From Gracilaria domingensis (lineage: Eukaryota; Rhodophyta; Florideophyceae; Gracilariales; Gracilariaceae): a stretch of DNA of 41,014 nucleotides. This document shows positions 4,890-41,014 of this stretch, one piece after another; position 1 is the first letter of the stretch; the number at the start of each line of letters is the position of its first letter. The notes beneath the pieces are model-generated. The model searched no databases. It saw nothing but the letters and a program-made list of their open reading frames with translations, and was not told the origin of the DNA. Where the stretch lies: the NCBI GenBank assembly GCA_022539475.1, contig VCMS01000398.1:1-41014 (forward strand), read 5' to 3'. The position numbers and the translations under genes were made by a program.

Positions 4890-4909
4890 ACACTAACAAC
4901 CCACCTGAG

Positions 4910-8287: not shown

Positions 8288-8484
8288 TTCCGGCAGTGAT
8301 TTCGCTACACACGCCGTGCACATATATCAAACTAGAGAAAACTAGCGCTTCACACCCACTTGGTCCGCGAATATTAGCACAATACGCGACCTTTGCAATA
8401 GCTCCAAATCGCGACGTGGCGGACACGCGACGCTATCGCACACGCTCCAAGCGGCACGGACACCGACCTCAGAAGGGAGCGGAC

Positions 8485-11594: not shown

Positions 11595-11598
11595 TTTC

Positions 11599-11616
11599 TG
11601 GTCTCCCGACCTAGAA
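11599..11616 (+). other. Primer binding site candidate
   Basis: TGGTCTCCCGACCTAGAA begins 4 nt after the 5' LTR. TGG at its 5' end is complementary to a tRNA CCA terminus. I cannot name the primer tRNA from sequence alone. Confidence 0.55.
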
Positions 11617-11719
11617 TTCCGCACGGAAGTGAAGAACGACCTCTAGGAAAGACGAACTACCGGAATTCTACCACTGGATCTGGACTACTGACGGACTGGT
11701 ATATCAAGCAACCGCCTTC

Positions 11720-18943: not shown

Positions 18944-20764
18944 CTAGATCCGTGCCGAACCATCTTCACCATTAGGACCGCTTGCACCATCTTGCTGACT
19001 CACTTCTGTGGAACTCGCGCGTAGCCTGCGGTGTGAAAGGATCCGATGGGGCGAAGAAAGCATCGCAACGCCCTCACTGGGCGCATCAACCCTCTGTGGA
19101 GCGCCATCACCTCGCTTTTGGCGCTTAAGCGATCCTCCCATTGGTGGCCTAGAAGCAGATTCGGTCATCGAATCAGGAGCTTCTGGGCCTTCGAAGGCCT
19201 GCAGGGTGAGCAACGTCGGCTGCACCCGCTGGTTGAAGGCCTCTACCACCGCCCTCCTGAGTCGCTGCTGGTATCGATTCAGTACCTCTGACAAATCCTT
19301 CTCGAGTTTCTGGGTGTTTTCCTTGAGAATTTCCTCCAGACCTTGAGGCAGTTCTGTTACCAGTCCAACAAGCGACTCGTACCTTCGGGAGCGACGCAGC
19401 CAGGAACGGGCCGTTGTCGCAATGTCTCCGAGCCTCCACTGGCCTTTGTACCCTTGGGTACTCATCTCTCCGGCAAGTTTCTCGAATGCGGCGAGCACCT
19501 CGGGAGCTAGACAGGTCGTGCTGCCCGAAGAGAGGTTTATGGAAACTGGAGGTACTGCACTCGCCTTATGGCAGCTTCCGGCTGGTTCGACGCTAGTTCT
19601 TAGAGTCCCCGAAGCAGCTCCCATGGACGGAGTGGGCGCTGTGGCTGCAGGTTGCACAGTCTCTGCCTCCGTGAGTGGGGCAGTCGCCAAGGGCAAAACG
19701 GGCTCCACGACCTCGGGAACAATAGGTGATTCCGTTGCCTGTTCGACCATCACTACGGCGGAAAAATCTTGCGCACTGTCAGGGATTGCGGGTAAATCCA
19801 ACTCCACGTTGTCTGGCGCTAGGCATGCAGACACAAAACCTCTTCCTCTGGGATAGTAGTCGGGTACTTTCCGACGAGGCACCACCTCTGGATTAGCTCT
19901 CGAAGGGAATGCTGGGTAGGCCTTCCCGTCGTCTTGTTGAGTTGGATGCCGCGAGATAGCTTCGAAGTTATCGTCCTCATAGTTATACCAAAGGTACCCA
20001 GGAGTTGCCGCCCAGTCAACACGGGGGATGTAGTCCAGGAGCCTCGCGACGTCCTCTGGCCAATATTCGGTACCGTGCACGACGTTTTGGATGCCCAACC
20101 CTCGCAGATAGACTATCATCATCTTTGGAAGAGGAACAAAGCGCCCACGAGGACTGGGACAGGCTGCATGGTTCCACACTCGCCAGTCCTTAGTGCGGAT
20201 ATTGCAGCGTACACCATACCTGCAGGTGTCGAGAAAAGCCATGAGGACGAAGACGGCCCACTCCACCGTGAGTACCTGCCACGTTAACCAGCACCGTCGG
20301 TCGTTCGGCGTCAGGATCATTTGACGTGAGTGATACGCGACCAATGGAGGGGTAGGGACTGCCAACAGGTTCGAAACCTTCCAGAAGTCCTCCCAATCGA
20401 CGTCGTGGAATAACGGGAGCCTGAGATAAAGCCCATTGCGGTCGAGACCCTCCATATCGTGGAACTCTACCTGGTGCCAGCTGAACAAATACTTCAGGTT
20501 TGTACGCATCCTTCCTTCAGGTTCCGCCATTTCGTTCCAATGAGGTCGGTCCAGCATCCAATACAGGCGATCGTACGGCTGCTGGAACGCCATCAATCCT
20601 AACAGGTTATGATTTGCCGGTGGAAACGCTATCGAAGGATCGGCGAACTTGCCGTAGATATCCCGGAGGATGTCGTTCACTCGCCGCTGGTAGCTCTCTT
20701 CCTCAAGTGTCCTCAAGAAGGGCATGTCGGTCACGATATGCCCGATACACCCTGGGACGGTCAT
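18944..20764 (-). CDS. Antisense ORF of the chromovirus (main part)
   Basis: This 606-codon ORF from ATG 20764 lies on the strand opposite to gag-pol, between pol and the 3' LTR. The N-terminal half is Trp/Tyr/Leu-rich and globular (YDRLYWMLDRPHWNEM, WQVLTVEWAVFVLMAFLD, LLDYIPRVDWAATPGYLWY). A Pro/Ala/Thr-rich linker follows, then a predicted coiled coil around residues 465-510 (GLEEILKENTQKLEKDLSEV), a basic SLKRQKRG nuclear-localisation-like motif and a low-complexity tail. It resembles no known enzyme. A TGA (20786-20788) separates it from an in-frame upstream ORF (20789-21130), so the ancestral protein was probably about 730 residues. A diverged relative lies at 27513-28840. Its length and conservation argue that it is a real gene, not a shadow of a sense ORF. 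Confidence 0.75.
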   Translation of the reverse strand: MTVPGCIGHIVTDMPFLRTLEEESYQRRVNDILRDIYGKFADPSIAFPPANHNLLGLMAFQQPYDRLYWMLDRPHWNEMAEPEGRMRTNLKYLFSWHQVEFHDMEGLDRNGLYLRLPLFHDVDWEDFWKVSNLLAVPTPPLVAYHSRQMILTPNDRRCWLTWQVLTVEWAVFVLMAFLDTCRYGVRCNIRTKDWRVWNHAACPSPRGRFVPLPKMMIVYLRGLGIQNVVHGTEYWPEDVARLLDYIPRVDWAATPGYLWYNYEDDNFEAISRHPTQQDDGKAYPAFPSRANPEVVPRRKVPDYYPRGRGFVSACLAPDNVELDLPAIPDSAQDFSAVVMVEQATESPIVPEVVEPVLPLATAPLTEAETVQPAATAPTPSMGAASGTLRTSVEPAGSCHKASAVPPVSINLSSGSTTCLAPEVLAAFEKLAGEMSTQGYKGQWRLGDIATTARSWLRRSRRYESLVGLVTELPQGLEEILKENTQKLEKDLSEVLNRYQQRLRRAVVEAFNQRVQPTLLTLQAFEGPEAPDSMTESASRPPMGGSLKRQKRGDGAPQRVDAPSEGVAMLSSPHRILSHRRLRASSTEVSQQDGASGPNGEDGSARI

Positions 20765-20785
20765 CCCGTTGACGGGGACGTGTAA

Positions 20786-21130
20786 TCAACGGTTATACCA
20801 AGCTGTCTCCCGCGCACTCTTGGGCCCACGAGCGACCTCCGGAATGGCAGCAAAGCGGCGTGCGTCGAAGAATTCCTCCTCAAGGCTGAGGTAATGTTGT
20901 ACCGCGTACGGCATCGAGGCGTAACGTGGACCGTTGAAGCTCCGTCCAACGGTGTGGTCGAACGCATCTCCCGGGCGCGTCAGCGCGCCCGACCCCTGCG
21001 GTTGGGGCATTGTGAGGGGAGCTCGGCTGGAAGTTGAACCCTGCGGAGCGGAAGAAGCCTGTGGAAGACGTGGTACTGGGATGCCGTCGTAAGGGTCCCC
21101 CATATCGGTGTCATTACGAGCGGAACTCAT
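20786..21130 (-). CDS. Antisense ORF, N-terminal part
   Basis: 114 codons run from ATG 21130, in the same frame as the 606-codon ORF and split from it only by TGA 20786-20788 (CGA to TGA is a plausible origin). The start MSSARNDTDMGDPYDGIPVPR includes IPVPR, which also occurs near the start of the related ORF at 27513 (MDISEIPVPR). The ATG lies 134 bp inside the 3' LTR boundary, so transcription would have to start in or near the LTR, on its minus strand. Confidence 0.65.
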   Translation of the reverse strand: MSSARNDTDMGDPYDGIPVPRLPQASSAPQGSTSSRAPLTMPQPQGSGALTRPGDAFDHTVGRSFNGPRYASMPYAVQHYLSLEEEFFDARRFAAIPEVARGPKSARETAWYNR

Positions 21131-21253
21131 AACAGACTTCCCTGACGGGCTGGTTTGAATCCTCCGGCGGCAAGGTGCAATTGACTGGCAGGCTGAGACG
21201 TGCTCGGGCGTTTAGACTTTCCGAGTGACTTTCCCGAGACGGCAAAGTCTAAC

Positions 21254-21261
21254 GGGGGAGG
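21254..21261 (+). other. Polypurine tract
   Basis: GGGGGAGG lies two bases before the 3' LTR, in the position expected for plus-strand priming. Confidence 0.75.
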
Positions 21262-21263
21262 TA

Positions 21264-21729
21264 TGTAGTATTATGAGCCTTAGGCTTGGTTCCGGATGAT
21301 CAGTCATTGCTGGTGTGTGGATGGTGGTCCACAGGTTGTACAAGTGGGGCTTTACCGGCCCCCATAGGTCTATTTATTTCTAACTTGTAGTATTTGTACC
21401 ATAGGTAGTATAGTTAGTACACGTGGTGCACTGCGTTACAGTGCACCACTCCAGAGGTTGAGGCGCCTCGTAGCCGATACTTAGGCTGCTCGAGCTGCGC
21501 CTCCCTCCTGTGGTAAAGTCAGAGACCCTCTTGGCAACTACTTGACCGTTAGGTTAGTAAGTACCAACACCCTTCAGGTTTTCAAGCCGTCGCTACGTCG
21601 CTCGCCATCTCCTGTAGGCACGACAGTTAGCGCTCGCCCATTGCACCTTCATACCAGTGGTCTCGCCGTTGGCCCTCATCCTTTGGACCTTTCCACTCCG
21701 TGGTTAGTGACCCGTGCCACTATACTACA
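21264..21729 (+). repeat. 3' LTR
   Basis: This 466-bp LTR has the same TG..CA ends as the 5' LTR. Five substitutions distinguish them, at about 21497, 21547, 21636, 21648 and 21651. Confidence 0.97.
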
Positions 21730-21734
21730 GAAAG
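21730..21734. repeat. Target-site duplication, right copy (GAAAG)
   Basis: GAAAG follows the 3' LTR directly and equals 11124-11128. Confidence 0.95.
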
Positions 21735-23693
21735 CAAGTCCGAGTACTGAGAGAAAACGGTTGTTATTGGGGCAACGTCCTGTTCTCCACAGCATATGTC
21801 AAAGAATGCTCCTATGAAGGGGAAGACCATGTCAAGTGCTTTGTAGTTTTTGGCCTCCAGCATTCCACGGAGATCGTCTTTCGTGAAGATACCATTCAAA
21901 GATTCGCCTTTGTCCTGCGTGGAGAAATCGATATGTAAACCTTTGGCAGAAGAATCCCGTTCTATGGCAGCTAGAATTGCGTTTGCATGGTTGAGGAGTT
22001 GGGTGCGTATCGTTCGAAATGAACGCGATGCAGATGTTCCTATTGTGGTGCACAGGGTGTGTGACTGCAGTCTCTCGATTGTGGCCGTTTTTATCAGCTT
22101 CGAGATGCCGAGATGCAAATTGTGTAATGGTTCAAATGAGAACAGACTGTATGGAGACAATCCCGGGATCATTCCAAGGCTTACGGAAGTTTCGAGGAAC
22201 GAAGGAATGAGAGATATGGAATTTGAACGCATCAGAGTATCCGCTTGAGATCTCCTCTCCCTCGCACGACGTGGACGTCTTTCCGCCTCGTCTTTTTGTG
22301 CATGTTGCAAGATAGCTGTGTATGTCTTTCGGATGCTTTTCGTGTGCTTTTGAGAACGTCTGTTGAATGAGGTGGGAATAGGACTGCATGAAGATGAGCG
22401 AGGGGCTTTGCATCTATGACACCGGCTTTCCGTTTTGGTCCCATGAAGAATGGACAGAATGTCCTTAGCCTCAGGAATATCTGCACAATAACTTGCAAGC
22501 AGAAGATGGCACACTCGACTTAGTTTGTCTTCGCCGATGAACTGAAAACCTTTCTGCGTGAGATTTAGAATAGGCTCCAGGACTTGAAGAAGAGATTATT
22601 GAAAGATTTGCATCCTGGACTCGCGTAGAGACTTGCTAGAAACGAATGGCATTGCGTCTGCTTCAGATGCGGAAACCTCGATCAGTGTGGTAGGGAAGTA
22701 TGCCACTACTGTGAGGTCATCACGGATGCACTTATGACGTAGCTCGTCGGAGAAGTTGAGAAATATGAGGTGAAGAGGATAGGCGGTAACCGATGTTTGC
22801 TTTAAAGTTGTTCAAGACTTATCGGTGCATACCTGCAGAAGACCTACGAAAGATTCACTGTAACTTATTTCTTGGGAGTACCACACTATTCTACTATCCA
22901 AAGAGCCCATGACCATTTCCTTAAGTTTTGAGGTGGCGTCTCTTGCAAGAGAGCCGGACATGGGGTGAGATATTTTCGTGGAGTGGGTCTGAGGTATAGG
23001 GTGGAAGAATGTGTTTTCGTTGTTAGCCAACTGGAGCTGTTTCAAAAGTGTCTGACCGAGGTCTCTCGTGTAGAGGGTGGCGCTGAACTTATATCCTTCT
23101 GGCGAGACAGTTCTTCGATTGAAACCGTCCTTTGAGGCGTATCGTTCGAAAATGGCGTTCTTCAGTTCTGTACAGCGCTTGGAACTTGTTATGGTCTCGT
23201 TGAATCGCTTTTGCGAGAATCGCGGGTACCGAAGTAGCCCAATTAGCTTGTCTGCCTCACGATGACCAAGGTTGGAAGCTACTGAAGCCAGACAAACCGT
23301 GAGATAATCCATATGCAAATCACCGAGGACCTCCTCAGAAGGCACTGGGCGGGAACTGCTTCCGTGGTCTCGCTCTAAGGACGCGGGACCCGGGGAAGGA
23401 GAAACACAATGCGAAGTGTCCGGAATGGGAGGGGCGCACGGAGTGGGGTCAACGATGTCCTCGGACACCGGAGGCTCGGAAAGGCGACAAGGGGCAGTGA
23501 CCGTTTCGGAAGATGCGGCTGCGGGCGCGGAAAGCTTGAGACGCTTGCTTCTCCGAATGGACCGCCTATTGTCGTCTTCAAACTTTGCTTTCAGACGAAA
23601 CGGGCAATGGTTGACATGCTGTTGAAGAGATAAGACTCCTCGGCGAGTAACGAAGGAGCACCCAAGCTTCTTATGTGTACACTAGTAGACCAT
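21730..23693 (-). pseudogene. tnp2/CMC/Plavaka-like transposase, N-terminal and core part
   Basis: The gene starts at ATG 23693 (MVY, then TAG 23682-23684). It continues with a zinc-finger-like CTHKKLGC..LQQHVNHC, as in Plavaka/KDZ-type transposases that begin with a Cys/His finger, and then a basic RRSIRRSKRLK. The middle has SYCADIPEAKDILSILHG followed by CHRCK, and FEPLHNLHLGISKLIK, which resembles the D-x-MH-x-L-x-L-G-V-x-KH segment of tnp2-type transposases. In-frame stops are TAG 23682-23684, TGA 22812-22814 and TAA 22596-22598; there is no frameshift across about 2 kb. The gene is cut at 21730 by the retrotransposon and resumes in frame at 11123. Confidence 0.75.
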
Positions 23694-27512: not shown

Positions 27513-28840
27513 ATGGACATATCCGAGATTCCGGTTCCTCGTCACAACGAGACACACGCGCAAGCGCACTCAACATCTCTGCACTCAGACGATTCAGTAC
27601 TTGAAGTTTCTTCTGCGATCGACGATTCGATGAACCCTCACCTGGGCGACGAGCAGCATTCCCAAGCCGGGGTTCTAAACTTTTCGGGTCCCGCAACTCC
27701 TGCGACACGGTATCTCGGCGGTTTCGCCTCCACTTCTCTGCCTCAGAGTCAACATCACACGACTAAACCGAATCCGGTCGACGTCGCGGCGTGGAATTCC
27801 GCTCAGGCGGTGCCCTTGCTGGCGACTCCACTGGCTGGATAGCGCGTGAATCGCTCCTTGTTCAAGATCCGACTACCGGAGGAAGCTGGGCCTATTCCAG
27901 AGCGCTCTGGTTTCACCCGACAGCGGTTCGCAGCAGTGCGTTGCTGGATTCATACACCGAGAACGGTATGCTGCCTGGCGGCCTACACCGAGATATGGCA
28001 GATTCCTGGGATTGGAGACACCGCGTGGCGGTCGCACCTCACGTATTGTCACGAAAACGGCACGGCTGTGGATACGAAACGCTGGATGAAGCGCGCACGG
28101 CTCTGGCGCGATTGGCATACTTTCGGAAGGATCGAGCCTCGTTCCCCGAGAGGATTCCCGAATCATACGGGTTCGACCTTTCCCGGTTCCGAGCTTACGG
28201 AGAGATGAACTATTGTGCGAACCTCGCGGACTTCCAAGCGGCGGAAAACTTCCCGGAGTCCATGCCGGCGGACATTCTCCTGTTCAACAGGCCTATCCTG
28301 CGAACGGAGTTCCGATATCTACATCGCCCTTCGGGAGAAGGAACCTTCTTCGACAGAGTGCGAAACGAACGCCAATGGCGATCCCGGTTCGGGTATCTGA
28401 TTCCACAGCAGAACATGGAGGTTGAACGTTTGCGTCCGGACGCACTCGCGGGTCGATTCGCTCCACTCCCATTGTGGTGGGCTCACTATGAGGTACCACG
28501 CGGGTGTTTCCCGGAATTGACTCCGTGCATCTCCTATGTGGGGTCACGCATGATTGCGAATCCGCACTCGGAGTATTGGATGCTCTTCATCGCCGAATGG
28601 GACGCTCGCGTTGCCGCGTTTATGCTATGGGAAGCATACGACCAGAACCGTGTTTGTTATTTGCCTCCGAGGTTACGGAATGTGATTAGATCACTGGACT
28701 TATACACAGCGCTCGGTTCCGACGACAACGTCAGCGAGGTCATCAGCCTTATCAATCTCATCGATTCCATTGATTGGAGTACCGTTCCGGCCGAAAACGT
28801 CCCCAGGGGCACTCGTCTGTGTTCTCGTTTTGCTAGTTAG
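27513..28840 (+). pseudogene. Diverged relative of the chromovirus antisense ORF
   Basis: The start MDISEIPVPR and the Ser/Thr-rich N-terminus parallel the antisense ORF of the chromovirus. The frame ends at 27842, but a second frame, open from 27791 to 28840, carries the recognisable core. DILLFNRPILRTEF parallels YWMLDRPHWNEM. EYWMLFIAEWDARVAAFMLW parallels CWLTWQVLTVEWAVFVLMAF. LPPRLRNVIRSLDL parallels LPKMMIVYLRGLGI. LINLIDSIDWSTV parallels LLDYIPRVDWAAT. The C-terminal Pro-rich and coiled-coil part is absent. One frameshift around 27790-27840 is needed to join both parts. No pol or gag sequence is nearby, so it is either a remnant of a related element or a captured gene. Confidence 0.55.
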
Positions 28841-29349
28841 GTGCACTAGAACACGATTATCGGACGAAATTAGTCAAAAAATCTGCAAAAATTGCGTATA
28901 GGGCTATGTGCAAGCAATTAATTTCAATTTTTTGTATACTACGCTTTCATGTACTCAGGCTTTTTCTCCATTCAATGTAGAGCAGTTGACGTACGCCACG
29001 ATTGCAAGTATATGTTCACGAAATGAAAGTATCAGACGCATTATTTGTCTTCGTCTGAGGACATCATGTGATGTCCACCTCTGCCGCCATATTTACGTTC
29101 GCTAATTTTCTGCAAATATTCTAGAATAGTAATCATTACTATGACTACCTAGTACAACATTCATCTTATGGAACCGCGCGCATGCATCTCACCAACCCCA
29201 TACCACTTCAAATTTCATTCTACTTACAAGAGTCCACCGCCGCCACCCTCCTCTATCTCCGCATCTGCGAAAGACAACGGCCCAAACCCTTTCGCCACAT
29301 CATCGTCCCCTTCCTCCTCATTTTCCTCTTCCTCCACATCCTCCCAGCT
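28841..29349. other. AT-rich spacer
   Basis: I see no gene. The stretch is AT-rich with short homopolymers, and lies between the antisense-ORF relative and the 3' end of the minus-strand coiled-coil pseudogene. Confidence 0.3.
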
Positions 29350-30045
29350 CTACTTCTTCTGATATCCCACAACGCTGCTTCCCTTCCACACCGGCTTCGG
29401 AACACACCTGAACCCAACCCTAGTCTTCTTCTTTTTCTCCATCTTCTCCTTCTTCTCCTTTCCAACCTTCGGCCTCACTTCATCCTCCTCCACCTCTAGC
29501 TTCCTCGCCTCGAGTGGCCTCTTCTCCCCGTACCTCCTCTTTCGGCCCCTCTTCTTTCCTTCATTACCCGCAACAACTTCATCCTCACCCAAACTCTCCG
29601 TAGCAGGCACAAAGTCCCTTGCGTCCTCATCTGCATCCACACTAGCCCCATCGACCCCGACCCCAACCCCGTTCACAATCCTCAGCGCAGGAGTCACCAG
29701 AGTACCTCGGATTTGACGTACATCCTGCCGCTTCTCACTGAGTTCCTTCAGCTTCTCCTCCAGCTCCTGCACTCAACCCATCAACTCTTTTTGCCCATCC
29801 TTCAATCCCGTTAGCTCCTTAGCAACAAATCCTGTGACCTTCTTCGTCAGTCGACGAACGTCCTCACCAATGCGGGTTCCCATCGCCCCTGCGCACCCCA
29901 ACATCGCCATCGACCACCATTCCAGCTCAACCTTGGCTTCCCCTTCATCTTCCTCCGCAAAAATTCTCTTAATCTTCTTATGAGACCTCTCCCCATCGCT
30001 GGGATCCCACGGTCACTTCACGTTCGAATGAGACTTGCCGCTCAT
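29350..30045 (-). pseudogene. Coiled-coil, lysine-rich protein with two in-frame stops
   Basis: From ATG 30045 (MSGKSHSNVK) the frame meets TGA 30013-30015, continues as HKKIKRIFAEEDEGEAKVEL, meets a second TGA at 29773-29775, and continues as QELEEKLKELSEKRQDVRQ to 29350. The middle part suggests a leucine/glutamate coiled coil. The C-terminal third is very Lys/Glu-rich with KKRGRKRRYGEKR nuclear-localisation-like tracts. No frameshift is needed over 232 codons. I recognise no family. A nuclear protein is plausible from the basic tracts. With no homologue in the window to confirm the joined frame, this call is cautious. Confidence 0.4.
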
Positions 30046-30079
30046 GATCAGATTTCAATGAGCGGGAACGTATCGGCAA

Positions 30080-30183
30080 GAAGAAGGGAAAGGAAAAGAA
30101 AAGGGACGGAAGGGAACGGGAACGGGAACGGAGGGGAACGGAAACGGAAGGGATCCGAAACGGAAGGGATCCGAAACGGGAGA
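30080..30183. repeat. Purine-rich microsatellite
   Basis: The stretch has GGAACG-type repeats (GGGAACGGGAACGG) followed by two copies of the 17-mer GGAAGGGATCCGAAACG. Nearly all of one strand is purine. Slippage is the likely origin. Confidence 0.7.
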
Positions 30184-30584
30184 TGACGAAACTCTATTCG
30201 TGCGTAGGCGCTCCGTGAACTTATCACGGCGCGAAAACCCTGTCATGTATGTACGCGCTTTCACCACCACTGCCTAGCACCCGTTCTTATCCCTGTGAAA
30301 CAAGTTGTTTCTCAAAAATAATTTCATAAATTCTAGCCCAATTCCCCAGTTTTCAACCGTCTCCCCCTCTTCATATTACCAATTCTTCATCATCCATGTA
30401 CCTTATTTCTTACTTATATCAATGTCTCGTCACATAGTATAGTATAAAAGCAACCAGTCTAATCAATCGTTTATGAAAATCATGTTCTCTACATGTCAGT
30501 AGCCTCCACTTTTAAAGAAGCGTAATAGTAGAGCTGTTTTCCTATGTATTGTAACTCACAAACAGTCCACGTTCTAACAAATAA

Positions 30585-31862
30585 ATGTACTGCATCTCTA
30601 CAACCATCCAAAGCCCCCTTTTCTCTCCTTTGGTACGAATTCGAAAACGAAACTGTTCCGCAATGGCCTTTCGCAATACACACCAGGTACGGGAAATCCC
30701 GCTAAACAATCGACTGCGTTCTGTACGTATCCAGCTGGATGCTTTCCCACATGCAACCTACATCACTTTCAACAACTGCCTTCAGTTACAGTACAACCTC
30801 GATGCTGAAGAAGCTCACATTCGTGGGGTGCAAACTCTCATTACTCCCGCACTGCAGAATGAGCTCAATGAGCTCTATGAAATACTACATGGCACACCCC
30901 GTCACGAAAGTATTCTGGAGCACCCACCCTTCACTCAGGCTATTCGAACTCTCCCATAGCTTTCAAATTATATATATCAGTCAAGATTCTACTCTTGGAA
31001 TCCTCTCAGCGTGCTTTCGCCACCTTCAATGGTGTTATTTGCTTCATTGTTAACGGTAGCCATAGGCGCGCTTTACGGTATCATCAAGCCCGTCTTGGCC
31101 CAAGCGCTTCTATTCAAGCGCTCCTCTCGCTATGCTCAGCTTGGTTTCACCATTCTCTATAGCATTCTGGAGACCATGCTACACATTATTCTCTTCGACC
31201 TCGCCCTTTCTCTACATGCCGCAAGATACGGTACCGTAGCTCTCGGACCGATGATTCCTTCGCACATGACGAGCACCTCCTCCATATTAAGGAATACATA
31301 CTTGGGTATAGCGGTCGCTGGCCTTTTCGCTCTCAATCTCTCCATCTTCGTCACCTATCAACTCCGTCCATCCCCGTCCAATCTTATTGATTCTGTCAGA
31401 GCAGCCTCTATAGCTTTTTTTCCAGGTAAATTTCTATTCGGGCTGTTCACTATCTTCGTGAACGCACTCTCTATCTTCTACTCTACAGGCAACACCTTTA
31501 ACAACATTGTACCGCTCTCGCACCGCGTAGGAACTTGATGGGAAAGGCTCTGTCTCTACATCCGTTGTGTCCTACACTCCTTCAGAAGGGCTCTCTTTTT
31601 CCATGATGTATTGCTCTCCATCAGAATGTTTTTGAACAGAGTGGTCCCAGTATTCTTCGCCCACACGATTTCTGAGTTGCTAGAACCATCAGCTTTTCGT
31701 TTGTACAAAGGCATCCCCCCTCTTCTTACAAACACTCTATTCGTTGGACTTGTTATGTGTGCGGGTATCGTCAAGCACGAACCACGGGTCAACCTCAAGA
31801 GGTACTTGTGTGCACTCAGAGGGCATTCTAGACTCCAGACTCGGCCTCTATTGGAGAAATAA
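30585..31862 (+). pseudogene. Multi-pass membrane protein gene with two in-frame stops
   Basis: The reading frame from ATG 30585 stays the same through three open blocks separated only by TAG 30957-30959 and TGA 31536-31538. The first block (about 124 residues) is soluble-looking. From about 31026 it encodes hydrophobic spans: MVLFASLLTVAIGALYGII, FTILYSILETMLHIILF, LGIAVAGLFALNLSIFV, FLFGLFTIFVNALSIFY and, after the second stop, LLTNTLFVGLVMCAGIV. At least five membrane segments are therefore likely. I recognise no family. If only the middle block is translated, a four-span protein results. The unchanged frame across both stops favours one decayed gene of about 425 codons. Confidence 0.45.
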
Positions 31863-32096
31863 TTTAAACACTAACTACGATAGTTACTAGCACTACTTAG
31901 GTAAAGAACAAACATTCAACTCCTTCTTAATGAAGTCCTTTTGTGGAAACATATGAACATATATATAGCACTTGTGACATAGGTTTTTACGCAAAACAAC
32001 AATCAATATCTTCAAAAACAACAAAACATGGTGACGACATCTCCGGATGTCCACTCGTCAACTGCAATATCATAAAATCATAAATTCATGGCTCGT

Positions 32097-33128
32097 TCAG
32101 TTCTCATCCCCATCCTCTGTCCCTTCCTCCATCCCCTGCGCTTCATATTTCTCGTCTTCTTCGTGGCTGTCCCCTTCCTCGACCATCAACTCATACTCTT
32201 CGTCCTCGTCCTCCCCATCCTCCACCAATTCTATTTCCACCGCAGGACCACCTGTGTTGTCCTTCATTCCCATGAGGTCGTCTTCTTCCACAAAAGTCGG
32301 TCGAAAATGGTGATTCAGATGAACTGCATCCGGCAAACTGTACTTCTCTGGTACCATATGCATATGGTAGCGAAACAGTGAGTTTTCCGGAAATCTTCCA
32401 TCGTTAGTGCTCGCACCGGCATGAAATACATCCCCCCTCCCAATAAACACAGACATAGGTGGGACAAAGAACTTTCTCACCACCATTCCTCGTGCCAACC
32501 CTTCAAATTCGTTTGCTGTTACAGCAAAGTGACTGTGGGATCCTTTACATATCCAAAGTGGGAACGACGCAGTTCCGGAGACCATCACAAAGTACCCCGG
32601 GTTCTTCTTCTCCAGCTTGTCTTCGTTTGTCAAGGTCTCGAAGTCGGTATGTAGTTGCTGTCGCTGGCAAGCCACTCCGGTACATAAGATCCTCCCTCCG
32701 GTCTTCGGTTCATATATTCTCTCATTCGGTTGCTTGTTTTCTTGTAGCCCCAACGCCGCACATATCTGACCAAGCCGAGCATCTAACAACGCCCTCTTCT
32801 TCACAAGCAAATGAGTCTCCGGTCTATTCTCCAGCTCGTCCACTATACCTCTTCTCGTCGTCATATACCTCCCATTGTCCGCGTTGATTATAGAAATCCA
32901 TGTAGTTCGATTCTCTGGTACCCTGAGGTCTGGGGCTTCTTCGAAGCTTTTTTTGAAGAAGTCCAATAACTCGACGCTTACATCCCCATCGATGAGCTTG
33001 CTGGGACTTTCAGCCATCTTCAAAAGGTCGTTGTCACAAGCAAAGCGTTCCAAAATACAGAAACCTCTCTCCCGAAGCTCAGCCTTCTTGTTCACAAAAT
33101 ACATATACGCGACGGAATCATTCTTCAC
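32097..33128 (-). CDS. 2OG-Fe(II) dioxygenase-like protein (module copy II)
   Basis: The open frame of 343 codons begins at a GTG (33128); the first ATG is eight codons in. Homology to copy I shows that the protein extends upstream, in frame, to about 33380 through a TAG (33198-33200). Double-stranded beta-helix iron-ligand features are complete: RQQLHTDFET gives H160-x-D162, GRGDVFHAGASTND gives distal H236, and FRYHMHM gives R253 for the 2-oxoglutarate carboxylate. The HxD-to-H spacing fits the family. Residues 300-343 form an extremely acidic tail. The fold is shared by phytanoyl-CoA-hydroxylase-like, AlkB-like and TET/JBP enzymes. The substrate is unknown, but the link to ParB-like and methyltransferase genes makes a nucleic-acid or chromatin substrate attractive. 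Confidence 0.65.
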   Translation of the reverse strand: MKNDSVAYMYFVNKKAELRERGFCILERFACDNDLLKMAESPSKLIDGDVSVELLDFFKKSFEEAPDLRVPENRTTWISIINADNGRYMTTRRGIVDELENRPETHLLVKKRALLDARLGQICAALGLQENKQPNERIYEPKTGGRILCTGVACQRQQLHTDFETLTNEDKLEKKNPGYFVMVSGTASFPLWICKGSHSHFAVTANEFEGLARGMVVRKFFVPPMSVFIGRGDVFHAGASTNDGRFPENSLFRYHMHMVPEKYSLPDAVHLNHHFRPTFVEEDDLMGMKDNTGGPAVEIELVEDGEDEDEEYELMVEEGDSHEEDEKYEAQGMEEGTEDGDEN

Positions 33129-33200
33129 TGCCTCCGCCCATAGGGTCCCATCATCAACCTCCCCTTCTCCTACCGCCTCGTTGAGAAGTTTCTGACCCTA

Positions 33201-33738
33201 ATACGCAGCATTCCAAAACACAGCATGATGTACTCCTTTAAAGTCTTTCGGCTCGAGCAAATGGCCTCGGCGCTCCTTCTGGAGATGTATCGCATCCATC
33301 CACAGATATACCGACTTAATCCCATCCACTCCAGCAGGCCGCTTGGTAGGAACTGCTTTCAACAATTTCAACCACGAATCCCCCCTCGTAAGGTCCTTCG
33401 TCTGCTTTCTTCAGCCCCGGGGGTAGAATTTCCGGGACTGTGTCGTCGAAAGGATCCGTGTCGTCTCCTCGCGTCTCAACATTCGCCGCTGAATCAGAGT
33501 CCGTGTCGCTGGTGAAGGAGATTTGATGAGCTTTGAGGAAGCTTCTGACCCCTTTCCCTCCGAGCGTACGCAGATGATTGATGACTAATGTTTCATCTTG
33601 GGGCACTTCGCTTACTTTCGCCTTCTTCTGAGCCCTGGGGTTGTTATCGCTCGTCATCTTCCTTCGTCGACGACTTCTTCTGGTGCTCCTTCTCAACCCC
33701 GTACTACTTGACTCCACTAAAACCACGTCGCTTACCAC
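33201..33738 (-). CDS. Linker between ParB-like and dioxygenase parts (module copy II)
   Basis: After TAA 33739-33741 the ParB-like frame continues as VVSDVVLVESSSTGL, a basic RRSRRRRK tract and an acidic Asp/Ser-rich stretch to 33316. At a run of six G (plus-strand C at about 33380-33385) the conserved sequence moves to the dioxygenase frame: GDSWLKLLKAVPTKRPAGVD, then YLWMDAIHLQKERRG and VHHAVFWNAAY, matching copy I. This suggests one ancestral protein in which ParB-like and dioxygenase domains were joined, now split by a stop, a homopolymer frameshift and TAG 33198-33200. Confidence 0.5.
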
Positions 33739-34950
33739 TTACTGAACGTCTTCCCCGGCATTCTTCGCCTTAACAAGTTTAGAACGCGACGCCCGAGTAT
33801 CCGGTTTAGTGACTTGGGTCCTAGGCGTGGTCGCTTTTCCCCCTCCCGCCGTAGCAGACGGCCTCACAGTCAAATTGAAATCCACCCCGACGGACTTTTT
33901 CAGCTTCTCACGAGCATAAGCCACCCTTCTCGATATCTTTCCGCCCCAAAGCTTCTTTGTCGCTGCAGTCTCCAGGCGTGCGGCCTGTGTGGCAAGATAC
34001 TCACGAAGGCTGAGTTTCTCAAACCTAGTGACTTCAATCTGCATCTCGTACACTTCTTTCAGAGACAGTCTCTTTCTTTTCGATACTTCAACGGCCAGCT
34101 CATTTAGGGACCGGGAGCATCTAAAAAAATATTTTCGTATATCTTCAAAGCGGCCCTTCAGTTTGGACTCTCGTCTCCTCGCAAAATATGCTGCCAGAGC
34201 GTCCAGGGTGAAATCGGTTGTGTCGTCATCCATACAAAAGAACTGATCACTGGAGATACATGTAATACCAATTTCATTATACTCGCGACACACACTTTCC
34301 AAATGCTTCAGCAGTCGAGGACTCTCAACCACCTTCAAACCCATCTCCGCAAACCTCGATAGATGCCTGATATGGTACTGACCTATGATTCCGCATACAC
34401 TTAAGCCACCCGCTACAGCGGTCCTTGTCATGTTGTTCAACACTTTCTTCTCCTCTTCAACCATCGCGGTTATAAAGGATACAATGGAATGAACCTTGTC
34501 AGCGAAGTTCATAAGTCGGGCCTGCTTAAGTCCATCGCTCAAAGCATTACCCAGGCTCAGAAGCTGCCTCGTTTTCATCTTTTGTCCATCTTTTCTCCTC
34601 CATAAGGAAACGGTAAGTCCTTTACACAGTTTCGTTATCTTTGCATCCTCCTCACATAGTTCCTTGAGTGCCACAAGACGATGAGCCCCACCTATGAGAA
34701 TACACGTAACTTTCACGCGATTTCCCTCCACCATCTCCTTCTCGGACTTACCCGTGATCAAAATAGCAACACTCATCGTTCCAAGGGCCTGAAGAAACCC
34801 TTTCCTTCGAATCTCCGCCTTGAGAGCTTCAACATGCTCCCGAACTGTCCCTCTCACAGTTGCGTCCGGGATTTCGATTAGGTCGATGGCGACCTTCAAG
34901 GACTCGTACTCATAATGGTCCAGGGTGAACTTGAGCGACGCCAGACTCAT
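33739..34950 (-). CDS. ParB-like domain protein (module copy II)
   Basis: The ORF has 405 codons in the frame open to GTG 34956; ATG 34950 is taken as start, giving 403 residues. Positions below count from the GTG. Residues 20-100 show the ParB/sulfiredoxin-fold N-terminal domain: AIDLIEIPDATVRG, HVEALKAEIRRKGFLQALG, then CILIGGAHRLVALKEL, where GGAHR (89-93) stands for the DGxHR/GxRR signature. In bacterial ParB and related nucleases this domain binds CTP or DNA or acts as a nuclease. Here the role is unknown. The rest is helical and basic and ends in a Lys/Arg-rich tail (TRASRSKLVKAKN), compatible with DNA binding. Upstream, the same frame reaches the low-complexity ORF through two stops (34972-34974, 35074-35076), one of which is followed at once by ATG. 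Confidence 0.65.
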   Translation of the reverse strand: MSLASLKFTLDHYEYESLKVAIDLIEIPDATVRGTVREHVEALKAEIRRKGFLQALGTMSVAILITGKSEKEMVEGNRVKVTCILIGGAHRLVALKELCEEDAKITKLCKGLTVSLWRRKDGQKMKTRQLLSLGNALSDGLKQARLMNFADKVHSIVSFITAMVEEEKKVLNNMTRTAVAGGLSVCGIIGQYHIRHLSRFAEMGLKVVESPRLLKHLESVCREYNEIGITCISSDQFFCMDDDTTDFTLDALAAYFARRRESKLKGRFEDIRKYFFRCSRSLNELAVEVSKRKRLSLKEVYEMQIEVTRFEKLSLREYLATQAARLETAATKKLWGGKISRRVAYAREKLKKSVGVDFNLTVRPSATAGGGKATTPRTQVTKPDTRASRSKLVKAKNAGEDVQ

Positions 34951-35250
34951 ATCCACGTCATTTGAAGGTAATTAATCACCTTCGTCGAATAGTTCAATGA
35001 CGTTTCCAGCTAAGCTCTCCTTCACCAAGACAACGTCATCATCATCCACTTCATCCACATCCACAACTTCCATCTAAGCTCCACTGCGACTCTCAGCCAT
35101 TGCAATCGCTTCAGCAGTTCTATTTCTGGACGACCCAGACTGCAAATTCATCGCTGGTTGCTTCCGTAATGCAGAGACCGCACTCTCTGGAGTTGTGGTC
35201 AATTGTGCAGTTCCTACCTTTGTACCATCCTGGTCTTGCTTAGATGGAGT

Positions 35251-35982
35251 TTAAGGCACAGGCTCAGGCGCTGGGGGCGGTACTTCCTTCCCCCCTTTGT
35301 TCTTCTGTTGTTTGCCTGGTGTTTTGGCCTGGGCCACCTGAGGTGGCAACCGCTTCCCACTCGGTGTACGCGGGGGTTTCGGTGTTTCCGCCATACGCAC
35401 TCGTTTCTCTTCTGTCGTGGACGCCGCATTGGTATGCCCTGATTTCTTACTGGGCATCTGTGGCGTGGTGTTCTGAACGGTTTCACCCGAAGCCATAAAG
35501 TTCAAGTCCCAAGCATAGAAACCCATCTTGTTTAAGTCCACAACGGTCTTCGGAATGAAGTCTTCATCCGTACACTTAAAGGGATACGGGTACGGTGTAT
35601 GGAGCTCCTTCGATACATCAGCTCGCCATATACCGACTGTATCCTCTCCCGGCTTCCGTTCCAGTGTGTGACCATGCATTTCTCTTCGATAGTCTTTGCC
35701 GTCGCCGGCAGACTCGATGGCCACCACATCAGCGGGGCCGATTGGGACCTTGTCCCCTTCATTCCCCGCGATAAGAAGCGTCACTTTGTCCCCCGGTGCT
35801 GGTTTCGCTTTCCCCGGGTTAGAGCTCATACTTGTCTCCGGATTCTGTGCTTCCTCACTACTCTTTTTCCCTCCTTCTTTTGTCTTCTTCGCACTTCGAA
35901 GATGCGGCGCCATGTGGTTGCGAACTTTCCGCGGCTTTCTGGAGCGCCTCATCTGCCGGTTCCCCAATCTTCTTGGCTGCAT
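35251..35982 (-). CDS. Low-complexity basic module protein (copy II, N-terminal part)
   Basis: 243 codons run from ATG 35982. It begins very basic (RRLGNRQMRRSRKPRK), has a central globular-looking segment (ELHTPYPYPFKCTDEDFIPK, then VVDLNKMGFYAWDLNFM) that parallels copy I, and ends Lys/Pro-rich. TAA 35251-35253 stops it, yet the same frame continues for about 100 codons with a DDDDVVLVKESL motif, equivalent to DDDVVLL in copy I, and into the ParB-like ORF. An overlapping frame upstream (to 36199) also looks protein-like (TKLNSNTLYNAAKKIGEPAD), so the true N-terminus may lie there with a frameshift. Function unknown. Confidence 0.5.
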   Translation of the reverse strand: MQPRRLGNRQMRRSRKPRKVRNHMAPHLRSAKKTKEGGKKSSEEAQNPETSMSSNPGKAKPAPGDKVTLLIAGNEGDKVPIGPADVVAIESAGDGKDYRREMHGHTLERKPGEDTVGIWRADVSKELHTPYPYPFKCTDEDFIPKTVVDLNKMGFYAWDLNFMASGETVQNTTPQMPSKKSGHTNAASTTEEKRVRMAETPKPPRTPSGKRLPPQVAQAKTPGKQQKNKGGKEVPPPAPEPVP

Positions 35983-36300
35983 TATATAGCGTGTTTGAAT
36001 TTAGCTTCGTCAAAAACCTATAAAGGTTGAATGCAGAACAAAGCGGTAATCGTATAATGCTCTGATCACGCCAGCAAACGGCGCACCCGCTCGGTTTGAA
36101 CAGGGTACACGCTTCGCTGTCGGTTGAAGTGTCGCACACTTTCGTATCGCAGATTTGTAGTGCAGCTCGTGGAAATGCTCGCGTGAACATTCTCGTCACT
36201 TTTAAGGAGTGGTACAGGCGGTTAGAGAGGGTGTAGAAGGCTTAGATGCGTACCAGACAGCATGATCAACCCTCACGGTTCCCCCCTGGTACCCTCCTGT

Positions 36301-36504
36301 GGTGGCCGGATGCGACGTGTTCAGACCGCGGTCTGGACAGCTATCAGCCGAGTTCATAGCCGAGATCATGGCCATGATACCATAATCTTGGCAAGATTAT
36401 ACTCTACCCATTGAGCTCTTCTCGCTGTCATGGCCATGATCTCGGCTATGAACTCGGCTGACCGCGGTCCAGACCGCGGTCTGAATACGTCTCATCCGGC
36501 CACC
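36301..36504. repeat. Nested near-perfect palindrome
   Basis: The left arm (36301-36377) pairs with the right arm (36428-36504) over about 75 bp. Pairs include GGTGGCCGGATG/CATCCGGCCACC, CAGACCGCGGTCTG in both arms, CAGCCGAGTTCATAGCCGAG/CTCGGCTATGAACTCGGCTG and TCATGGCCATGA in both arms. The 50-nt loop carries the D- and anticodon-arm-like part of a tRNA. Confidence 0.85.
36361..36424 (-). tRNA. tRNA-Gly(GCC)-like sequence, aberrant T arm
   Basis: On the minus strand, AGCTCAATGGGTAGAGT is a textbook D arm/A box. ATAATC-TTGCCAA-GATTAT forms an anticodon arm with a 7-nt loop and anticodon GCC (Gly). CGAGA..TCTCG can form a short acceptor stem. The T arm is replaced by the self-complementary TCATGGCCATGA with no TTCGA loop, so normal tRNA function is unlikely. 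It is a tRNA-derived relic or a tRNA-like element embedded in a palindrome. Confidence 0.45.
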
Positions 36505-37699
36505 CCGCCAGCCTACGGGGGGTGGGAACGCAGGTTGTAGGGTACAACATAGAGCTGAGTAGAGCTGCGCAGAGCACATTTTTCTTTTCACCTCGCAGTT
36601 TATACGTATCTACACAGAGGCAAGAAACAATTTCGCGCGGATTTAGTTTATTCGATGTTGAGTTCGAATGCCGAAGAGCAGAGCCATTCGAGAATGAGGG
36701 TAGTGATGGCAGCACCAATCGCAATTGTACGGGTATTATGATCATGGCTGTTTGTCGTGAAAGCAGTCTCAGAAGGACCCTCATCACGTTCAGTGGCGGG
36801 CGGCGACTGTACAGATCTTGTCATTGACGTGTTCTGCTCTTAGTGTGGGTGCCAAAAAGTGTGTTGGCGCTGCATCATCAACACGGTGTAAGCCAGAAAG
36901 TGCTATCCACGCAATATGCGCTAGCTCGTATCAAACTGAGCGCCTGAGACAGACGTGCAGCCGGGCGGTGGGTGTGTAGCGCAGTCATTAGGCATACCAA
37001 GATCAGCAGCTACGGCCACGGCGGCTGCAGTCGTCAAGGCAGCGCTATTATGGGTGTTTGCGCCTTGCGACGGTCGTCTTCATTGCGTCAAAGGCGCGTC
37101 GGACGCCTGGCGAAAAGGAATGTGAGCGCTGTAAAACGTCATGCTCGTTACTAAATTGGTATTACCAGTACGGGGAGTGGGAAGACCTAAGCTGCATGTT
37201 GTTCCAGACGCTCTTGTTGTTGAGTGCGACGGATGCGGTGGTCAAATGTTGCGATGAGGATAGCGTCTGAACGCTTCGCGCCTGCGCAATGCAACCGCTC
37301 TTTGGATGCCCGTCGGCGTTGGAGCGCAAGCGGCGAGAGTAGAGGCGGAGAGCGTACAGGAGATTTGTATGCAGCCCCATGATTGCGGCTATGATGATGA
37401 TGCAGATAATGATGTGGGGGAGCCAGTCGGTGGCGGAGAACGGCGATTCTGAGTCGTATAGGAGCATATCTCATATGGTCCATGCGCGCTACATCCCCCT
37501 CTACACGTGGCCTGATACCTGCTTCCACAGTCTCCAGACCGCGGTCCAGACCGCGGTCTGAACACGTCGCATCCGGCCACCAGGAGGGTCACTACTAGGT
37601 GATTCTACACAAGTCTGCGTACTACACCCACTCTCGCAACCCTGTTCACACTTTCCTGTGTACGACTAACACCCGCTCAAATACGAATTTGGAATAACG

Positions 37700-37789
37700 G
37701 TTCATCACCGCCGTCTACTACTCTTTCGAGAACTCCTCCAGCGAGTTTCATCGCCACCGTCTATTCCGCTTTCGCGAGTTCTTGCGAGG
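37700..37789 (+). repeat. 45-bp direct repeat upstream of the methyltransferase
   Basis: Two diverged units of about 45 bp (GTTCATCACCGCCGTCTA.. and GTTTCATCGCCACCGTCTA..) end just before ATG 37795. They may lie in the 5' leader. Confidence 0.5.
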
Positions 37790-37794
37790 GTTAC

Positions 37795-40541
37795 ATGGCG
37801 CCCGTCGAAAACATACCCTTCTGTGGTCTTACCAGCAGAGCGATGTCGACTACGGCATCTTCCATGGCATCTACGGAGTCTAGCTCCGGTGAGAAGGATA
37901 TTATGGCGACGCGGTTCCTTCGTTTGTTCAGCATACTTCTCGAGCTGAGAGACTCGTTTGCGGCGTCTCGAGGTGGCATTGGTTCCCCTCGTCAGGTTGG
38001 ATACACGGCTCTGGTTGAGTACGCTATCGCAAACCGTGCCAGTCTGGCTTGTGCACGGGAATTTCTCACGGATGTTACGAAGAGCACGTACGCAAACTAT
38101 ACGCCGCAGGAGCTGGTGAAGACAAGTACCGATGTTAGTTTCATAAGTCGGGTCTACAAGTATGTCCGTATCATTGACGTGGATGACTGGACTCAGGATC
38201 GTCGGGTGAGGGATCTTTTCGAATGGAGTTTGGATAAGAATGTGGATGGCCGGAATTGTTTTATGGAGCGTGTGTTCTGGAATGACTTATTCAAAGAGCA
38301 TGGTCCCGGATCCAAGCAGACGAAGAAAACTACCTTCCGGATTGATCCTGCTACTCGTTTTCAGCAGTTGCTCTATCTATCCCTAGTGAAGCGTATCACT
38401 ATGGAGAGGCGACTCCCAGTCGCGAAGAAGGCGAGGACTGCAACTGGTTCTCGGAGACATGTGCCGTTTGTGGATGGTTTCGTCATTTCAAACCAAGCGC
38501 ACATAAGGCGGATGGGTTATGCTGTGCAAATGGTATGTCTAGGATGGGATTCCTTTGCTTCCAGTCTTGGATTTCGTGACGCAGAACAAATGCTGTTACC
38601 GTTTCTTGCCATGGAGAAAGCGACGCTTTCTTTCAGCGCAATTGAGTCCCGTTCTTCCGGATACAGCCCAGCATCGGTGTTCAAAACATTGGGGATCGAA
38701 TTGAAGCCAACCACAGAGGTCAACGCTACTGTGCCTTGGGTTCACACCCTTTCGGATGATATCGATACCAAACTAATGGATTTGTCAAAAGAGTTCCTGA
38801 CCGATTTGAACAAGGTTGTCTTAAACGGATTTCTGTACAAAATTTCCGCTACTACCAAGTGGGAACTGCTGGAAGGCTTTCGAAGGAAACTTCGGACACG
38901 GTTTCCATCTCGTTTTGATGTTTTCTCCGATGAGTATTTGGCTACTCTTCGTACCGCTATTGTCCAGCTGAACCTGAGACCTTCCCAGCAGCCATCCCGG
39001 GCCACTCTGTCAGGACGTCAGGAAGGAAGTAACACGGTCACGGTGAAGATTGAGGATACGGTTACGGCACAGAGAACAATTTCTTCCAGGCCTATGGCTA
39101 GGGCGGTGGGTAAAAAATCCCGTGAAACATCCGGTGCAGACCCGGGTCCGGTGGATGTCATTGTCATAGACGACCCGGGTGATGATGACGGTGGAGCGCA
39201 CCCCCTTTCTAATTTTCCTGATGGTGTTCTTCCACCTCACGACTTCGACGATGTAAGGACGACGAAGGCTTTCGGTGTGGTCAAAAAGAACATGAAGCAA
39301 CAGTTCTCTATGCATTGCGTTGGTTATGAAGAGTTAGTGAAGGCTCGTGGTACACTGTTCCCTTCCGATAATTCCCTAGAGGGCAATGTTCAACTCGTAC
39401 TCACGGACCCACCTTATGGTATACGTGACAGTGAGTATGATGAGCTTCTCGACGAAGATATGGTTAACACTGCAGAGATGATGGCCTCAATTCTTCGCCA
39501 TGGCGGTCATTTTATAATGTTCTGTACTTTCAAACAGTTAGCGGACTGGGAGGAGATTCTACGTGAGCACAAATCTGCAGTCGGGAGGCAAAGTGCTTCG
39601 TTCTTTGTCGACCCCACACCGATGCAATTCATTCGCTCTCGTACGCACACTTTGAAGAACCCCGGAAGGAACACAACACGGTTGTTCTCTGCAACCGAGT
39701 ATGCCGTGCACGGAGTCCGGAATGGAAACGCGTACGAGGAGCAGAAGGTGATGGTGAACTACAAAAACTTCAACTACGTTCCCACGCAGTACCCGGGCAT
39801 TACTCCATTATCGATCAGGTTCCGCATCTGGGGGCTGGTGAAGGACTCCGTTGGAGGGCAAAGAAGCGTTCCAAAATACACTCGGTTCAGGTTCGCCCCG
39901 AACAGAACCCGAGGGCACTGCTAAAGGAACTCATTGCCACGGTCTCAAATCCCGGAGACGTTGAGGTTGATCCTTATAGTGGAACATTTTCCGGTGCCTT
40001 GGCGTGCATGGACATGGAAGAGCCCCGACGCTTCATTGGATGTGAGAGGGATGAGCAGTGCTTCGCTCATGCTGAACACAATGCTGTAGTGATGTATGCG
40101 AGGAAGGTTTGGGGTAACGAGTTCAACGCAAGAATAACTGTCAGTAATGACGTCGTTCAAGCCTCGTATTTAGTACAGACAAAGTTCCCGGAAGCAAAGC
40201 AAAGAACCTCGCGTATATGGACCGCACCGAAAGGATTCCCGCCATACCAATGTTTCCCGTTTCATATCAATTCCTACATCGCAACGTTTTGCAGAGAACC
40301 GAGTCTCATCGCGCAGCACAAGGAGAAACCAGTGCACGAGTGGCCTCTGAATCTCCAAGGCACATTGGAGAGGATGGATGTACAGAGTTTGTTCGCCGCT
40401 GAAGCAGCAGGTTTATGGTTGTACAGGAAGAGATCAAATATCAAACACCCCATAAGTGGAGATGGAGTGTTCAGTAGTAGATCGTTCTCGGAAGGAGAGG
40501 TTGTTGGGTACTTCTATGGACATTGGTATATCATTACATAA
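37795..40541 (+). CDS. Permuted DPPY-type DNA methyltransferase with SET-like tail (one frameshift)
   Basis: ATG 37795 opens 709 codons to 39924. Residues 1-400 are a helical domain I do not recognise. PVDVIVIDDPGDDD (about 452-464) is SUMO-interaction-like. VQLVLTDPPYG (DPPYG 538-542) is catalytic motif IV of N6-adenine/N4-cytosine DNA methyltransferases. Near 39797 (CCCGGGCAT) a one-base loss shifts the frame. The homologous reading continues as HYSIIDQVPHLG, PEQNPRALLKELI, then DVEVDPYSGTFSGALAC, the SAM-binding motif I (39969-40010), and FIGCERD. Motif IV before motif I is the beta-type permuted order. At the end, SGDGVFSSRSFSEGEVVGYF resembles the start of a SET domain, cut by TAA at 40539-40541. 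The enzyme would methylate DNA in the nucleus. The frameshift may be real decay or a base error. Confidence 0.75.
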
Positions 40542-41014
40542 GCCGACGCAATGCGAAACAGATGAAATAGCCGAAAGCGGAGTGTAGGTGCACGCCTACG
40601 TTTCTCCTCTTCGTTTTGGAGGTATGAATTGTAAGCTCGCAAGCTCGACAAGGGCACGCATGTCACAAGCACGCCTCATCACTATATTCCGAAATCAATA
40701 CTTCATTGCCTGGGTACGATACAACTACTGCTCCTTTCCATGTATAGCGGTACTCTGCTACCACTCAAGATGCTCCCTCGTGTCCGGGATGGGGTCGATG
40801 AGACAGGATTTTGGCTGAGATGGAGCCTTACAAGGCCGCTTACAAACGTTGATTATTCGAGCGTTCCGAGCATACATAGCTACCCATTTGGGTAACATGC
40901 TCGCAAGCTATATCACTACTATTGGTGACGGCTACACTCAGGAATAATATCATACGTATTGGAAATACATGGCGACGAACTGTAACGTATGACTATGGAC
41001 CAGCTATCCATGGC
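40542..41014. other. Region after the methyltransferase; possible SET-domain remainder
   Basis: From 40588 another frame reads YVSPLRFGGMNCKLASSTRA then NQYFIAWVRYNYC. This vaguely recalls the RFxN...AN and AxRxI...YxY end of a SET domain, so it may be the displaced continuation. Beyond 40820 I see only short inverted repeats such as CGAGCATACATAGCTAC..GTAACATGCTCG. Confidence 0.25.

Follow-up and report, generated by a model that had tools for sequence, protein, structure and literature searches.

The window analysed here is the whole of contig C398 (41014 bases) of a 77.9-Mb, 680-contig red-algal genome, and its right-hand part holds two divergent genes: on the minus strand a gene for a basic N-terminal part, a ParB-like part and a 2-oxoglutarate (2OG)-Fe(II) oxygenase-like part (ParB-2OG), and facing it a gene for a DNA methyltransferase (MTase) with a SET-domain tail (MTase-SET), the two separated by a palindromic region (Table 1). 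This cassette is almost certainly decayed accessory cargo, carried by a giant DNA transposon of the Plavaka type (CACTA-like) that has multiplied in the genome. The first-pass annotation, made from the letters of the window, had placed the boundary of the cassette at 32097; the unit starts instead at 28814, and between this end and the divergent genes lie a charged accessory open reading frame (ORF) and a membrane-like accessory gene that forms a 435-aa ORF in contigs C8, C140, C434 and C446 and has no Pfam match. The copy belongs to an older subfamily (92-93% identity to the copy in C253 and 89% to that in C231), and the flank of its left terminus lies in an ORF weakly like an ORF between the long terminal repeats (LTRs) of the window (blastp 19.5%, E 0.007).

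The five ORFs, the GGAHR motif and the HxD...H...R set described in the first-pass annotation are all present, but the minus-strand ORFs (32097-33197, 33316-33738 and 33739-34971), which it had read as proteins in related frames, form one broken gene, which in alignment with a relative whose single frame is open runs through two frames and has 5 internal stops. The MTase gene carries a frameshift near 39.9 kb, and its SET tail is disrupted and then truncated by the contig end at 41014. With one gene in two frames with stops, the other frameshifted and cut, and open frames elsewhere in the genome, the genes of the window are relics. The palindromic character of the intergenic region was borne out, palindromes with arms of at least 7 occurring at 3.2/kb in 36030-37602 versus 0.58/kb in 8301-36000.

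Ends, copies and transposase of the family

The plan of the element was read from younger copies (~98% identical), which are ~20 kb long and carry 15-bp terminal inverted repeats (TIRs), a Plavaka transposase, the ParB-2OG frame and the divergent MTase-SET frame. For the family, the ends, TIRs and 2-bp target duplications are observed, as are the transposase, the number of copies, the order of the genes and constraint on amino acids. The suspicion that the cassette is mobile is supported by this repeat family, which has defined ends with TIRs and encodes a transposase. The ParB-like piece has at least 110 genomic matches (a lower bound, from 102 of 537 candidates scored), which fall mainly into two tiers, one at ~78-93% identity and often with stops, the other at ~64-69% with many stop-free members and frames of up to 1,327 codons. 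The MTase-SET piece has at least 69 genomic matches, and with such numbers for both pieces the cassette is more than a chance assembly. Young copies that were fetched are mostly 97-98% identical to those in C8 and C434 over up to 14 kb, and their left end is sharply defined; in the C446 copy the right part is only 82-89% identical.

Left ends were found at 40 sites (40 of 41 candidates scored), mostly starting CGTCTGTG, and right ends likewise at 40 (40 of 58 candidates scored); in C12 and C277 the right end reads ...CCGGAAACACAGACG, giving the 15-bp TIR. Thirteen end pairs were fetched, 12 of them with both termini, and among these 12 the flanking 2 bp are shared in six (P ~4e-5 by chance, at 1/16 per pair) and the flanking 3 bp in none. 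Plavaka elements have TIRs with 2- or 3-bp target duplications (PMC12730594). One copy (C25:718754-739206) measures 20,453 bp and has a TT duplication, and the C12 copy measures 19,977 bp end to end and is without a 2-bp duplication. The copies in C12 and C233 (L054, L050) share an identical 20-base left flank, differ in the right flank and show no target duplication in either case; duplication or recombination between copies is a possible source of the shared flank. The termini of the element, CGTCTGTG..CACAGACG, match neither those of the fungal subgroups (TGT..ACA in PlavakaA, CATCA..TGATG in PlavakaB) nor the CA..TG of most of the wider group, and the element is therefore not filed under either fungal subgroup.

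In an analysis that took in 80 of the 110 ParB matches and 66 of 84 transposase matches, a ParB match on the opposite strand lies downstream of 31 of the 40 left ends, at a distance of 5.03-5.09 kb in 21 cases, a Plavaka transposase match downstream of 22, and a right end was found for 13, at distances of 13-39 kb and in four cases 19.9-20.8 kb. The transposase of the C12 copy (L034) matches PF18759 (Plavaka) with E 6.1e-24, and direct repeats near the right end are 82-83% alike over ~190 bp. The succession ParB, MTase, transposase also occurs, by eye, in the older subfamily on C18, C37, C109, C110, C351 and C383, with transposases at 63-76%.

The co-occurrence of the two sides holds within this genome, as the first-pass annotation would have it: a divergent ParB match lies within 15 kb of 35 of the 52 MTase matches entered (from at least 69), pairs that are not all independent, some contigs looking like mutual duplicates, and the divergent pair occurs in two subfamilies. 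In six regions examined the divergent genes start from a palindromic region. Young copies in C434 (L014) and C8 (L021/L022) contain a perfect 76-bp palindrome, of which C146 has a 50-bp part, and the palindromes of the older subfamily and of a second, related family differ from it. A second perfect palindrome, of 74 bp, lies ~500 bp from the 76-bp one in C8.

Table 1. Features of the window, with those of the main element listed first
Feature	Position	Strand	Basis or remark
Old giant Plavaka copy	28814-41014		Right end and transposase past the contig edge; similarity to C253 and C231 begins at or near the left end
Left terminal repeat	28814-28828	+	Terminus CGTCTGTGTT, as in the young family
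Charged accessory ORF	29350-29772	-	Homologous DNA in ten fetched copies; C8 homologue by eye
Hydrophobic (membrane-like) accessory gene	30585-31862	+	Two in-frame stops inside
2OG-Fe(II) oxygenase-like part of ParB-2OG gene, other frame	32100-33380	-	1 stop; HxD...H
Basic N-terminal and ParB-like part of ParB-2OG gene	33382-35988	-	tblastn with open-frame relative; 4 stops
ParB-like ORF	33739-34971	-	phrog_3264 E 0.0053; alignment
Palindromic region between divergent genes	36030-37602		Palindrome density
MTase N-terminal part and first half (DPPY)	37603-39924	+	ATG at 37795
MTase second half and start of SET, past the frameshift	39567-40541	+	Remaining SET broken up to 41014
Related second family	4931-11164		Partly by eye
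Second-family 2OG N-part	4931-5554	-	150 scored matches in genome
Second-family ParB part	5646-5969	-	VDG block common with main family at 35%
Second-family N-part	5970-7049	-	
Second-family palindromic array	7168-8295		
Second-family 458-aa-like gene	8194-9911	+	Likeness by eye
Second-family transposase C-part	9908-11164	-	By eye against C8
Remainder of second-family Plavaka transposase	21720-23681	-	Interrupted by LTR retrotransposon

The two divergent genes and their products

Read from sequence, the methyltransferase and SET domains of the MTase-SET protein are established by hidden Markov models (HMMs). The longest MTase-SET frame, in C12, has 1,118 codons. In the window the first half of the domain, up to the frameshift, matches phrog_67 (E 4.9e-9) and, weakly, Pfam N6_N4_Mtase (E 0.015), and the second half PF01555 (E 2.6e-9); in C231 the PF01555 match (E 9.8e-9) covers 1-219 of 221. 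In the family DPPY precedes the FxGT (S-adenosylmethionine) motif. DPP[YF] and VVD are kept in all ten copies read and the subsequent GT in nine, C231 differing; the nearest solved structures are DpnA and CcrM. The domain is predicted to be a beta-class N6-adenine (N6A)/N4-cytosine (N4C) DNA methyltransferase, and DPPY favours N6A over N4C. The SET domain, in the open frame of C8, matches the whole of the PF00856 model (1-105 of 105, E 2.9e-7, above the cut-off), and the C231 match falls below the cut-off (E 0.006). Because the usual NH of the SET motif is replaced by ND in 9 of 10 copies, its activity is putative. The earlier description of a DPPY methyltransferase with a SET-like tail thus holds for the domains (PF01555, PF00856). 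Among the candidates scored, the 7,995 sharing most words, were nine relatives from outside the genome (27-40% identity over 80-100% of the query), six of them with both Pfam domains; one, from Chondrus crispus, bears the name 'adenine specific DNA methyltransferase'.

The ParB-like and 2OG-like parts stand in a single stop-to-stop frame of 1,326-1,327 codons in C61, C140 and C434; in the C412 copy a frameshift precedes the catalytic core, and the apparent 1332-aa frame is an artefact of N. Both identities are plausible and rest on motifs. The GGAHR of the window is DGAHR in six of eight other aligned copies and DGAYR and DEAHR in the remaining two; the ParB part has no match in Pfam or in PDB sequences. 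In the 2OG part the HxD...H...R set of the window corresponds to H183, D185, H259 and R276 of the stop-to-stop ORF (H160, D162, H236 and R253 when numbered from GTG 33128). The putative iron triad HxD...H is present in 10 of 10 copies, the predicted 2OG-binding position R276 is R in seven, C in one and L in two, and the blocks GSH, PPxSxFxGRGDVxHAGA and RYHMYMVPE are largely kept across families. Weak and unrelated matches to the 2OG part include a penicillin-binding protein (E 0.059), TPR (E 0.096) and 5'-nucleotidase (E 0.43). Membership of TET/JBP was rejected, since comparison of the 2OG part with Pfam, NCBIfam, PHROGs and PDB sequences turned up nothing from that group. A viral origin was also rejected, as viral contigs searched with three queries yielded no relatives.

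Between subfamilies, the ratio of nonsynonymous to synonymous substitution rates (dN/dS) is 0.14-0.15 for ParB (three pairs) and 0.09-0.13 for 2OG (two pairs), values obtained with synonymous sites near saturation. The proportions of nonsynonymous and synonymous differences (pN and pS) are 0.21 versus 0.76 for the MTase (one pair) and 0.19 versus 0.65-0.67 for SET (two pairs). Amino acids are thus constrained in all four domains, which argues that the proteins were useful while the subfamilies diverged.

No C5-methyltransferase was found in the genome by a search with one Pfam family (the assembly may be incomplete; the same search was positive in 10 of 14 control genomes), and seven copies show no CpG mutation signature, singleton transitions running at 0.044 at CpG versus 0.045 at other C. 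The first-pass annotation had cited TET among base-oxidising enzymes; on these two results a TET-like oxidation of 5-methylcytosine (5mC) is unlikely. The ratio of observed to expected CpG stands at 0.96 for the window and at 0.91 for a young copy, with a lower value of 0.74 over the first 1.4 kb. A search for MT-A70 was uninformative, no control genome giving a match.

Second family, inserted retrotransposon and host sequence

To the left of the main element the window carries a related second Plavaka family. Of its interrupted transposase, piece 21720-22595 matches PF18759 (E 1.2e-7), and piece 22812-23681, which has no Pfam match, was linked to it by eye with the C8 homologue as a guide. 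The single second-family copy that was read retains LHTDF, THAGA and RYHMYMVPE at 48%. In this family the divergent partner across the palindromes is the 458-aa-like gene. The interrupting LTR retrotransposon (11129-21563) is of Ty3/Gypsy type with a chromodomain and 300-bp LTRs that are 99% identical, sits by eye within the Plavaka transposase gene and contains an antisense 606-aa ORF (18944-20764). A 415-aa protein at 1398-2645 adjoins the second family, likewise on C8 (by eye), and is possibly further cargo, together with a HAD-like hydrolase at 3074-4144 and HAD-like pieces, by eye, in 4300-4900.

A clear host-type gene piece, for ribulose-phosphate 3-epimerase, occupies 843-1349 (PF00834 E 4.9e-37). 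Phycobilisome linkers are matched 14 times in the genome, in four cases on contig C680, possibly the plastid, and in ten across eight other contigs, and there are 11 light-harvesting complex (LHC) matches; from these and the Chondrus relative of the MTase the host is taken to be a red alga, making specific the earlier call of an alga-like eukaryote.

Proposed role of the module

The best explanation as a whole is that this transposon cargo forms a self-directed epigenetic module (probability about 0.7). The ParB-like domain would recruit the 2OG oxygenase to DNA of the element itself, most likely to the intergenic palindromes, where the oxygenase would remove or oxidise a mark laid by host or element; with the genome apparently devoid of 5mC machinery, this would have to be a substrate other than 5mC. 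MTase-SET would write amino-methylation on DNA, N6A being likelier than N4C, and would methylate a protein, perhaps a histone, so that the combined module would sustain the element's expression and mobility, or would time its transposition. That the role is one of anti-silencing or self-marking is held tentatively, at a little short of even odds. A fully self-addressing system, in which ParB loads on parS-like palindromes, the oxygenase erases amino-methylation or another non-5mC mark and MTase-SET rewrites the same chromatin, is a doubtful extension; since the palindrome sequence differs between families, each family would then mark only its own kind.

A number of observations weigh against the self-directed module. 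A same-strand MTase match lies downstream of only 16 of the 40 left ends, a low figure that may come partly from deletions, insertions and incompletely entered MTase matches, and in the second-family copy of the window no MTase separates the 2OG/ParB part from the 458-aa-like gene. The ParB part matches the ParB-like model phrog_3264 weakly (E 0.0053 at best, two of nine members), and the 2OG part matches a 'holin' model, surely spuriously, just as well (E 0.0047, three of eight members). No HMM searched names the 2OG part a 2OG oxygenase, AlphaFold gave no usable model of it (pLDDT, the predicted local distance difference test, 29.2 with seven sequences and 30.5 with eight), and R276 is absent from three of ten copies, including C61 and C140 with their full ParB-2OG frame. 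No relative of ParB-2OG outside the genome was found among the candidates scored with the ParB part and frame residues 370-979, the catalytic 2OG core not being queried, and 5mC, the usual TET substrate, is apparently absent. The write-and-oxidise system first proposed accordingly keeps its DNA methyltransferase and SET by HMM, while its 2OG and ParB components remain motif-based.

The same deficits of HMM and model support, along with the variable arginine, would suit a '2OG' part that is a pseudo-enzyme or another beta-rich domain, with ParB as a structural DNA-binding or nuclease-like part and MTase-SET as the sole enzyme; the HxD...H set kept in every copy read, the motif blocks largely kept across families and the strong constraint make this improbable. 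The enzymes might instead serve transposition itself, (de)methylation at the ends or palindromes timing transposase binding and copy number rather than opposing silencing. Methylation acts in this way in the transposition of En/Spm and IS10, and transposase and accessory genes do share one element at much the same spacing, with direct repeats near the right end and palindromes in a constant position. No observation ties the enzymes to the ends, however, and SET would be left with no obvious part; this explanation is unlikely though by no means negligible.

Giant algal transposons hold many accessory genes whose function is unassigned, according to PMC12477816, and the second family apparently carries other genes (by eye), both of which would fit a passenger or a host-benefiting cargo whose constraint records a past function in the host. 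Against such cargo stand the same divergent pair in two subfamilies and at 35 of 52 MTase matches, the constraint in all four domains and the MTase-SET relative in Chondrus, and we give it a low probability. A resident, non-mobile modification or defence locus of the alga, which the window taken alone, lacking this copy's transposase, might suggest, is refuted by the repeat structure: the 110 genomic matches with shared ends, TIRs and target duplications leave it practically no probability.

The element with its cargo is best regarded as a variant of a published kind, since accessory genes in giant transposons of algae and TET genes in transposons of fungi have both been described. The giant elements described by Petroll and colleagues are reportedly Plavaka. 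PMC12477816 attributes to Petroll et al. 2025 giant EnSpm elements that carry accessory genes and, citing that study and an older review, mentions proteins like ParB + methyltransferase in transposons of red and green algae; as seen through this citing paper, the study (Curr Biol, Bostrychia moritziana) concerns the same kind of element and the same host group. The same paper describes Sola1-1 of Ectocarpus, with a 1104-aa protein of ParB and N4C/N6A methyltransferase for which self-binding and self-modification are proposed. Sola1-1 resembles the present element in that a giant DNA transposon carries a ParB-like DNA-binding domain along with an amino-methyltransferase, but places them in one protein of a Sola-1 element, whereas here two divergent genes (ParB-2OG and MTase-SET) accompany a Plavaka transposase.

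In PMC12730594, fungal KDZ, Plavaka and other transposons encode TET/JBP, for which escape from silencing is proposed. They share with our element a dioxygenase gene, putative here, on a DNA transposon, Plavaka included; unlike them, it shows no detectable TET/JBP similarity, lies in a genome that yielded no C5-methyltransferase and adds MTase-SET and ParB. The bdelloid N4CMT and SETDB1 (PMC8885841), which serve silencing by the host and involve a chromodomain fusion, likewise partner a bacterial-type amino-methyltransferase with histone methylation in a eukaryote, a partnership that is predicted here, but in the alga MTase and SET are fused and transposon-borne. Some genes of the giant Plavaka repeats of Amoebidium match only distant lineages including red algae, and the cargo named for them is tyrosine recombinases, unlike here (PMC11244446). 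The first-pass annotation knew of no described system of this composition: the exact pairing of ParB-2OG with MTase-SET was indeed not found in the literature searched, which covered few subscription journals, while the ParB with N4C/N6A methyltransferase and TET/JBP transposons of these papers are published relatives in kind.

The self-directed module ties the expansion of giant transposons in a red alga to a testable set of proteins that may act as eraser as well as writer of chromatin marks. Its MTase-SET fusion could be a single protein methylating both DNA and histones, and, with many copies at ~98% identity, the activity of the module would be measurable by ordinary long-read modification calling.

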